Below, piece by piece: positions 39,599 to 58,806 of a stretch of DNA of 64,000 nt. The notes beneath the pieces were generated by a model, which searched no databases, had not been told where the DNA came from, and saw nothing but the letters and a program-made list of their open reading frames with translations. How positions within the stretch are numbered: position 1 is the stretch's first letter; every line of letters begins with the position of its first letter. The DNA comes from an uncultured Clostridia bacterium (GTDB lineage Bacteria > Bacillota > Clostridia > Oscillospirales > Ruminococcaceae): the NCBI GenBank assembly GCA_947627465.1, contig CANQWD010000001.1:80561-144560 (forward strand), given 5' to 3'. The position numbers and the translations under genes were made by a program.

Positions 39599-40255
39599 AT
39601 GGAAAAAAACATATCAAAATCGGTTATCCGCAGACTGCCGCGTTATTACCGTTTTCTGGAGGAGCTTTTAAGCGAGGGCGTTGAAAAAATATCCTCGGGA
39701 CAGCTTGCCGAGCGTATGCGCTCTACGGCTTCGCAGATACGGCAGGACTTGAACTGCTTCGGCGGCTTCGGTCAGCAGGGCTACGGCTACAACGTCGCGG
39801 AGCTTCGCGCGGAAATAGGAGCCATACTCCACCTTGATGGCAAGCGCAAAGTGATACTTATCGGCGCTGGCAATCTCGGGCGGGCTATCGCGGCGCATAT
39901 TGATTTCGCGCAGTACGGCTGTGAGCTTATTGGCATTTTTGACCGCGACAGGGCGCTTTTGGGACTGGATATCGCGGGTTTGAAAATATGTTCCACCAAC
40001 GCTCTTGGCGATTTCTGCCGTGAAAAAAAGCCCGATATGGCGGTGTTGTGCATTCCTAGAGAGGGCGCAAAGGAAGCGGTCAAGCTGCTTGTGGAGCACA
40101 ACGTCCGCGCGTTTTGGAACTTCTCGCATTACGACATTCAAGGCGATTTTCCCGAAGCGGCTGTGGAAAATGTTCACCTCACCGACAGTCTTATGACGCT
40201 TTCTTATATAATGGAGAACAATGAGTTCAGCGCTAAAGAGGAACAAAATACATGA
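39599..40255 (+). CDS. rex: Redox-sensing transcriptional repressor Rex
   Basis: Senses the NADH/NAD ratio and represses fermentation and respiration genes when NADH is low. It has 218 residues. The N-terminal winged helix carries SVIRRLPRYYRFLEEL and TASQIRQDLNCFGGFGQQGYGY. The Rossmann domain carries GAGNLGRAI, and the C-terminal swap helix is present. The ATG at 39599 follows GGAGCGGGG; a TTG at 39584 is less likely. It sits directly after icd. A matching operator candidate lies on the acnA promoter. Confidence 0.97.
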   Translation: MEKNISKSVIRRLPRYYRFLEELLSEGVEKISSGQLAERMRSTASQIRQDLNCFGGFGQQGYGYNVAELRAEIGAILHLDGKRKVILIGAGNLGRAIAAHIDFAQYGCELIGIFDRDRALLGLDIAGLKICSTNALGDFCREKKPDMAVLCIPREGAKEAVKLLVEHNVRAFWNFSHYDIQGDFPEAAVENVHLTDSLMTLSYIMENNEFSAKEEQNT

Positions 40256-40872
40256 AAACAAAGGTCGTACCAATCATTTTACTAATTATTTTTGCAGTAA
40301 TCGGGACAACTTGCATTGCGGCGGGTATGGCGGGGATCGTCGAAAAGCCCTTAAATCACGAGATAGCCGCGGCTGAGTTCGGCGAATGTATCGATGAGAA
40401 CTCTGAGGGGCTTTCGTATGCGTATACTCACGAGCATAAGCTTGGCTTTATCACCGTCGCGAAAGAGTATTACTACATACTTTACAACACGGCAAACGAG
40501 GGTTATTTTGTTCGGTCTACGAAAAATTTTGACAATATCGCCGCCGGCGCGTTCATTGAAAAGGGCAGCGTTTACGCCGCGGGTAAGGTGAAACCGCTAA
40601 AAGACTGCCCCGAGCTTTCCGACGCTCTGCGCGAACTTGAGCTTGCGGGCGTTACCGTAATAAACGGACGTTACCTCGACACCCTTTACCTGCTGAACAG
40701 CCTGTTAAGGTTCGGCGCGGGGCTTGGCTTTCTGTTCGCCGCGGGAGCGTTCGCTATGCTGGGCTTCCGGAAACGTCCGCTCGGCGACGCGGTGAAGATA
40801 TACTGCGTATTCTCTGCGATAATCGGCGCGGGAGCGGCTCTTGTCTGCGGCTATTTAATTATTATGGGGTGA
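40252..40872 (+). CDS. Uncharacterised membrane protein, intact paralogue of the split gene
   Basis: A 206-residue membrane protein that I do not recognise. It has a hydrophobic N terminus (6-29), an external domain with the block EYYYILYNTANEGYFVRS, and two hydrophobic segments at the C terminus (about 143-165 and 172-198). The block KVKPLKDCPELSDALREL is shared with the disrupted gene downstream (KVKRLKATPELSAAVRQL). ATGA overlaps the rex stop. Confidence 0.78.
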   Translation: MKTKVVPIILLIIFAVIGTTCIAAGMAGIVEKPLNHEIAAAEFGECIDENSEGLSYAYTHEHKLGFITVAKEYYYILYNTANEGYFVRSTKNFDNIAAGAFIEKGSVYAAGKVKPLKDCPELSDALRELELAGVTVINGRYLDTLYLLNSLLRFGAGLGFLFAAGAFAMLGFRKRPLGDAVKIYCVFSAIIGAGAALVCGYLIIMG

Positions 40873-40875
40873 ATT

Positions 40876-41664
40876 ATGAAACGAAAAACTGCTGTCGCCG
40901 CGTCAATGATAGTTTTCGCGGCGGGATTGTTTTGCGTTATATCGAGCGCCACGGGGCTTTTACAGCCAAAGCGCGAGTGCGGCTTTTTTTCAGCGGACAT
41001 CGGCGAACGAATTACCGTTGAAACCGAGTATTTAATACTAATTCCCGATTGAAAATAGACAAAGATTTGCGAGGATGATTTTTGCAAGACAAGGCGGAGG
41101 ACGAAGCAAGGCTGACGCCTTGCGAGGACGACAACGCAGTATTGCAAAAATCAGACCGCAAAGATTGTCTATTTTCTGTCGGGTATTAGTATAACGCCCT
41201 GCGTTTACGAGACGGAGCACAAGGTGAATTTCATTCCCGCGGTTCACGAGTATTACTACGCGTTTATGAGTTCGGACGGCAGGGCGTATCTCGCGCGGCT
41301 TAACGGGAGCTTCGGCGACGGATTGGACGGCGAGGGTTTTCGGCACGTTTCTCGGCTATGTTTGTGCGTTACGGGAAAGGTGAAGCGTCTTAAGGCTACG
41401 CCGGAACTCAGCGCGGCGGTTCGGCAGCTTGCCGAGACGGGTATAGAACTTGACGGAGAATACTATCTTGACACGATTTATCAAGTTAACTATCTGTGGC
41501 GAATAGCTGTGGGCGTTGGATTTTTGATCTTCTCGTGCGCGCTTTTTGTGAATTTCCGAACGATAGGCACCGTAACCGCGGCAACAAAGTTTTTCTTCGG
41601 CTTTGCCGTGATCGCGGGAATTCTTTCAATGCTCGGCGGAGTATATCTTTTGAATATGGGCTGA
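40876..41664 (+). pseudogene. Membrane-protein gene disrupted by a 156-bp element
   Basis: A paralogue of the gene at 40252, split in two. The first part (40876-41052) encodes 58 residues starting MKRKTAVAASMIVF and stops at TGA 41050-41052, inside the insertion. The second part runs in the same frame to 41664 (VNFIPAVHEYYYAFMSSDG onward). Deleting 159 bp (one copy of the element plus one TAA repeat) gives a continuous 209-codon gene, with TEYLTPCVYETEHK across the junction. This aligns with the 206-residue intact neighbour. The protein is therefore disrupted in this strain, and recently, since both halves are otherwise intact. Confidence 0.9.
41036..41191. mobile_element. MITE-like palindromic element, 156 bp
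   Basis: The ends TACTAATTCCCGA and TCGGGTATTAGTA are inverted repeats that continue as GAAAATAGACAAAGA.TTTGCG and its complement, and as GATTTTTGCAA/TTGCAAAAATC, giving roughly 50-bp imperfect arms. An inner CAAGGCG/CGCCTTG stem fills the centre. It is flanked by a direct TAA (41033-41035 and 41192-41194), a 3-bp target duplication. It contains no gene. It would fold as one long hairpin when transcribed. Confidence 0.9.
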
Positions 41665-58657: not shown

Positions 58658-58777
58658 CGGGTCTTAACGGAGGGTTTTATTGACTTGGAGCGGTTAAAAC
58701 AATTTTACTTAATTAAGTTATCGCTTGAGGGCGTTTTCGTATAAAAATATACCCACTGCAAAATTTTGCGGTGGGTA

Positions 58778-58806
58778 TTGCAATTTACAACAAAATATGG
58801 TATAAT
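58778..58806 (+). promoter_or_regulatory. Promoter of the type IIA topoisomerase pair
   Basis: TTGCAA (58778-58783), 17-bp spacer, TATAAT (58801-58806), extended -10 TG. A 58749-58778 hairpin (ATACCCAC/GTGGGTAT) directly upstream may terminate the preceding gene. Confidence 0.8.

Follow-up and report, generated by a model that had tools for sequence, protein, structure and literature searches.

Background

Bacterial MITEs are characterized in the available part of PMC10969869 as elements of less than 500 bp with terminal inverted repeats (TIRs), a target duplication and a stable hairpin, which are present in several copies and can inactivate genes. The Correia/NEMIS elements of Neisseria fall into two classes of ~155 and ~107 bp, the short one without the internal segment and the long one with stops in all frames (PMC2229807, in extract). 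TIMEs, which are miniature elements derived from Tn3, generate mosaic non-autonomous elements (PMC4133298, in extract). Small palindromes are represented by the CGTC-tagged REPs, for which the accessible sections of PMC3733652 name no dedicated transposase; some of them lie inside longer palindromes, and the phyla given in these sections for CGTC repeats exclude Bacillota.

It is normally the ends that give a MITE family its name. In the stretch of 64,000 nucleotides from an uncultured Clostridia bacterium that was analysed here (the window; own assembly of 2.52 Mb in 52 contigs, 97% complete), a small gene is split by a MITE of a family designated A, and this gene disruption is in itself ordinary. 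The interesting part beyond it is a 34-bp core at the apex of the element, which is independent of the ends: one and the same centre is located under unrelated ends and target rules, both within the genome and across Clostridia. The shared apex therefore matters more than one further MITE insertion, and it makes testable by which route the centres and ends of MITEs are exchanged and whether REP-like hairpins that lack their own transposase ride as MITE passengers.

Family A corresponds to the bacterial MITEs of PMC10969869 in size, TIRs, duplication, hairpin, copy number and gene inactivation, but departs from the general picture in the available part of that source by its arms of about 50 bp and by a centre common to MITEs with unrelated ends. 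With Correia/NEMIS it shares the presence of two size classes (here 156 and 81 bp) and stops in all frames, whereas in the extract of PMC2229807 the internal segment carries an IHF site and the ends carry TA; family A is distinguished by TNA duplications and a CGTC-type hairpin. Mosaic-making miniature elements are common to the TIMEs and the present case, but the former are Tn3-derived (PMC4133298, in extract), whereas several unrelated end types share one centre here.

Results and Discussion

Structure of the split gene and its inserted element

The features of the locus are as follows (positions in the window).

40252..40872, plus strand: uninterrupted paralogue next to the split gene, 206 aa, without a Pfam family above cut-off
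40876..41035, plus strand: 5' portion of the interrupted gene with 53 codons, ending in VETEYL; 41035 is base 1 of the next codon
41033..41035, no strand: left TSD TAA flanking the family-A window copy
41036..41191, no strand: family-A MITE, 156 bp, with the ends TACTAATTCCCGATTG... and TACTAATACCCGACAG...
41036..41086, plus strand: left arm of the imperfect inverted repeat, ~50 bp (inverted-repeat search, folding)
approx. 41069..41143, no strand: 75 bp absent from the 81-bp copies on contigs C18 and C21, with a junction placed to within a few bases
41098..41131, plus strand: core, 34 bp, AGGACGA-stem-loop-AGGACGA, hairpin apex, recurring in MITEs of other end types
41106..41123, plus strand: core stem of 7 bp (41106-41112 pairs with 41117-41123) with the loop TGAC (folding, alignment)
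41141..41191, minus strand: right arm of the imperfect inverted repeat, ~50 bp (inverted-repeat search, folding)
41192..41194, no strand: right TSD TAA flanking the family-A window copy
41192..41664, plus strand: 3' portion of the interrupted gene, in which an ORF of 146 codons stays open from GTG 41224

The preliminary description of this locus had reported imperfect TIRs of ~50 bp and a TAA duplication; its coordinates are exact, and both the arms and the TAA flanks were confirmed. Complementarity of the arms amounts to 89% for the pair 41035-41062/41165-41192 (28 nt) and to 93% for 41076-41090/41139-41153 (15 nt). The window copy is the sole separated inverted repeat of the 64 kb (seed 11, length 18+, distance <=450), and its predicted ssDNA fold reaches -46.8 kcal/mol compared with a mean of -15.7 (sd 2.9) for 200 dinucleotide shuffles, none of which is as good (z = -10.6). 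With less than 500 bp and no transposase gene, the 156 bp contain one or more stop codons in each of the six frames. A second pair from the same repeat search is the overlapping palindrome ATACCCACTGCAAAATTTTGCGGTGGGTAT at 58749-58778. Between 40800 and 41700 we found one promoter-like site (expected 1.0) and one terminator-like site (expected 2.0). The sole Rfam match over the window at gathering score lies away from the element and represents an FMN riboswitch (RF00050, 30722-30838, 117.9 bits).

Five copies of family A are located on five contigs of the own assembly, namely, the window copy on C1 and those on C4, C6, C18 and C21, and the 10 matches to its ends form five pairs, all of which are MITE-sized. 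The long copies on C4 and C6 exhibit 99% and 98% identity to the window copy; the C18 and C21 copies of 81 bp each lack ~75 bp of the centre and have an identical junction. Perfect 3-bp TNA duplications flank four of the five copies (TAA in the window and on C18, TTA on C4 and C6), and the C21 copy shows TTA on the right, its left side being covered by an E-like end of another MITE. The duplications of relatives are TTA or TGA at three loci (L038, L039, L050) and imperfect at two (L037, CTA/TTA; L049, TAA/TAC). Family A thus combines a length below 500 bp, the lack of a transposase gene, TIRs, a TSD and dispersed copies. MITE E itself has 188 bp, the ends GGGCGTGTTCACATTACC and a TA duplication, often at CTA-ATT-like sites; it was located at G000:C4 10059-10246 (L234) and on C6, C13, C17, C39, C46 and C47 (L235-L242). 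A reading of the C4 and C6 copies as fusions with MITE E was dropped, given that E, with its 188 bp and TA duplication, lies inside the TACTAATT end of the family-A element. The nested A+E unit at L002 is enclosed by a further repeat with the ends AGAGCCTGTT...AACAGGCTCT.

Excision on paper of 159 bp, that is, the element plus one TAA, yields 630 nt corresponding to 209 codons and a stop. The repaired frame aligns end to end with the 206-aa neighbour (32.7% identity over 211 columns, E = 4e-28) and is colinear over the junction, in agreement with the in-frame repair proposed from the letters alone. The present frame stops after 58 residues, 53 of which derive from the gene and five (ILIPD) from junction and element; both gene halves are free of additional stops or frameshifts. 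If a 2-bp TA duplication is assumed, the repaired frame hits a stop at the junction, and the gene's own frame therefore favours the 3-bp TAA reading. The preliminary description had also pointed out that 159 equals 3 x 53. The frame is indeed kept, but the length is a coincidence of the subfamily, because family-A elements of relatives measure 157 bp in the cases with both outermost ends identified (L123, L143, L186, L189), and 157 + 3 is not divisible by three.

The Pfam search assigned no family at its cut-off to the neighbour (40252-40872) or to the downstream part. With the latter as query, relatives were detected in 12 of 100 genomes (own included), all from the same genus and with 21-35% identity, the self match aside. 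The joined protein was compared with 15 loci, some of which are two views of one region. It spans the junction in seven ORFs without internal stops from five genomes including the own one (two in G028, two in G041, one each in G039, G020 and on own contig C10; 23-31% identity); the remaining eight loci are without a match to this protein at E<=0.001, one of them matching the neighbour only. The rex gene was not found in the ~1.5-kb flanks of the homologue loci searched. Owing to this result and to their distance, we do not claim these homologues as orthologues.

Uninterrupted homologues, five copies with matched ends and TNA duplications at four of them corroborate the earlier proposal that a MITE-like insertion broke a once-open gene, and it is very probable that a MITE inserted at TAA in this small gene. 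A non-autonomous cut-and-paste element would have entered the TAA, thereby breaking the reading frame, and its long hairpin is probably added to the mRNA.

Relatives and age of the insertion

With the element as query, 9 of 100 genomes matched, own included. The same insertion in orthologues, which had been named as evidence of a conserved feature, was not encountered: several of the matches in eight of the 99 relatives concern the core only, and no match listed lies in a homologue listed. Full-length relatives of family A are present in G014, G018 and G041 with 75-79% identity. The perfect duplication, the near-identical long copies and the two open halves are consistent with a recent insertion. 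The alternative that the insertion is old, with the halves as separate functional parts, or that the gene was already dead beforehand would account for the persistence of the downstream 146-codon ORF, and family-A copies can persist, since G018 and G041 have one insertion in common at the same site with 95.6% identity over about 3 kb. We regard it as quite improbable in view of the perfect TAA duplication, the near-identical sister copies and the lack of any extra stop or frameshift in the halves.

The question of the transposase

Family-A ends were retrieved by the end-pattern search from 8 of 43 genomes at genus level and from 3 of 394 at order level, both counts including the own genome. 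The genus-level search returned 30 loci, of which 20 have an end pair with a widest spacing of about 245-250 bp and 10 are one-ended, six of these at a contig edge. The full transposon with the same ends for which the preliminary description had proposed to look was not found: no transposase or full-length transposon with family-A ends was seen in the own genome or in the loci returned from the 43 genus and 394 order genomes. A longer family-A-ended element may still exist, because 10 of the 30 genus loci show one end only. Phage and plasmid records gave no match to the family-A element. PF01609, the one transposase family searched, was hit twice in the own genome, both times without family-A ends. 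The hit on C3 (L198) is a frame that contains an internal TAG and is enclosed by matching CACGGCAACAGCATTTAC ends; the hit on C43 (L199) is a fragment inside an ORF that we take to be IS256-like.

IS5 elements follow the rule of a 3-bp TNA duplication and IS630 elements that of a TA duplication, and family A exhibits the 3-bp TNA duplication that characterizes IS5-family-derived MITEs. It is nevertheless not assigned as IS5-derived, because the PF01609 search of the own genome revealed no IS5-type transposase with its ends. Mobilisation in trans by a transposase is plausible. The enzyme would originate from an element that is lost or unassembled in the own genome, and the TNA rule points to an IS5/PIF-Harbinger-like type. 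The transposase may have read the ends alone, because a perfect duplication also flanks a copy that lacks the entire centre.

Distribution of the core among MITE families

At <=3 mismatches the 34-bp core is present 18 times in the own genome, three times in family A and 15 times in family B, a MITE with the ends GGCAACAYYGC and a 4-bp duplication in 12 of the 14 rows scored. The exact core pattern has 76 matches in 75 stretches of 84,980 species genomes, and 74 of these matches in 73 stretches belong to Clostridia, Oscillospiraceae, Ruminococcus and similar labels, as taken from records that include one MAG tagged Roseburia and some merely assigned to Bacillota or Eubacteriales. The matches in Devosia (L153) and Sumerlaeota (L178) look like chance, with 4/6 and 0/6 free stem positions paired, and were left out of the core alignment. 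With a covariance model (E<=0.001), the core was located in 32 of the 391 genomes of the class, the own one among them, and in 21 of 223 genera. The single core match in viral contigs lies inside an element with family-B-like ends (L197).

The ends around the core were grouped by eye into the types TACTAAT (A), GGCAAYACCGC (B), CTAGTGTRCTG (D), TATAGTCGAT (G) and TTATAGCAATCC (H), and a class X of about 270 bp, the ends of which differ between copies; a further core-bearing end type, TCCTCATTCTGAGC (L219), came from the model search. No ends were found for seven stretches (L124, L130, L138, L142, L160, L184, L193), six of which lie close to the end of a contig, and for several others the search settled on an inner pair; neither group is counted as proven MITEs. 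Rfam searches of 18 loci gave three matches, all outside the core-bearing elements by position, and a permissive search of nine loci gave 18 matches, none of them positioned on these elements. In the open-access literature no account was recognised as the family-A element or the core.

Conserved form of the core

In the 36 distinct cores, 93.7% of the stem cells are paired compared with 71.5% in shuffles, and 64 cells have changed on both sides compared with 19.2 in shuffles, a value reached by none of 500. The outer stem pair is G-C in 26 of the 36. RNA folding of 17 elements chosen by us places the core at the apex with facing AGGACGA repeats and the same pairing in 17/17; the stem is complete in 13 of them, has 6/7 pairs in three and 4/7 in one. 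The arms of A-, D- and G-ended elements are alike, about 58-64 bp per side. Pairing, two-sided changes, facing repeats and similar arm lengths are what would be expected if the core were a selected functional module, such as a site recognised on ssDNA or on an RNA hairpin by a factor of the host or of transposition. However, AGGACGA and GCTGACGC had been preset by the search pattern for 34 of the 36 cores, which builds in part of their conservation, and two other measures show no excess over shuffles, namely, the pairs in which both partners have changed (269/500 as high) and the further pair types (371/500 as high). Template-switch (quasi-palindrome) repair of palindromes can moreover yield paired changes without selection. 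The perfect duplication at a core-less copy and the occurrence of the core in only 32/391 class genomes at E<=0.001 likewise stand against a functional role, which appears rather unlikely to us.

Possible exchange of centres and ends

The comparison of family A from G018 with L194 reveals 32/40 and 31/40 identical positions in the inner arms, but 8/22 and 8/20 in the outer ends (ungapped). Conversely, three copies in G310 (L200, L202, L203) are 158 bp long and have family-A-like ends around a different interior with the palindrome TGTCATTGCGAGGAGCGAA; in our own comparison, this interior resembles the CGTC/TGTC-tagged REPs in the accessible sections of PMC3733652. Since the ends differ in the first case and the interior in the second, centre and ends need not move as one unit. 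The centre is probably dispensable for movement, because the core-less copy on C18 has a perfect TAA duplication. Both core-less copies share one junction; their origin by parallel deletion is possible, though less simple. These observations point to a central hairpin that may be a passenger, MITEs with unrelated ends having come to share it by an exchange of arms or centres, and we give this reading of the core an even chance.

The core resembles the CGTC-tagged REPs but departs from their definition. Its minus strand represents a TCGTC-stem-loop, and the CGTC adjoining a small palindrome and the 4-nt loop are in common with the REPs in the accessible sections of PMC3733652. In contrast to the latter, whose tag is unpaired and at one end, CGTC is present on both sides as a direct repeat, with one base paired in the predicted fold, and two defining REP features are missing, since the 7-bp stem does not correspond to the AT-starting stem of 8-9 bp and there is no CCA tail. 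A small REP-like CGTC-tagged palindrome might accordingly have been inserted, separately for each MITE family, into the middle of palindromes that already existed, a scenario suggested by the REPs described within longer palindromes in the same sections and by the family-A copies without core. The two missing features weigh against it, as does the fact that some pairs of families stay similar beyond the core, and we consider independent entry doubtful. In a wider and unlikely scenario, Clostridia would harbor a superfamily of mobile hairpins defined by the apex and not by the ends, with one conserved CGTC-type stem-loop that has opposed AGGACGA repeats and is read by a shared factor, and with arms and ends exchanged between transposase systems.

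Core-bearing X-class elements of ~270 bp are present, for example, at L137, L140 (62-95 and 367-400), L141, L128, L136 and L139. Their outer 16 bases vary between copies, even within one genome, as seen in JAFSBF, where the copies share 6 to 13 of 16, and the two ends of one copy agree at at least 13/16 positions, a value biased by choosing ends that match. This bias applies to the entire end comparison, which covers 35 typed copies and not all rows. Another MITE-like family at L025, L026 and L043 has ends like GGGYRYCTCTAAAAACC and harbors the related core GACGAAGCAAGGCTGTATGCCTTGCGAGGAGG.
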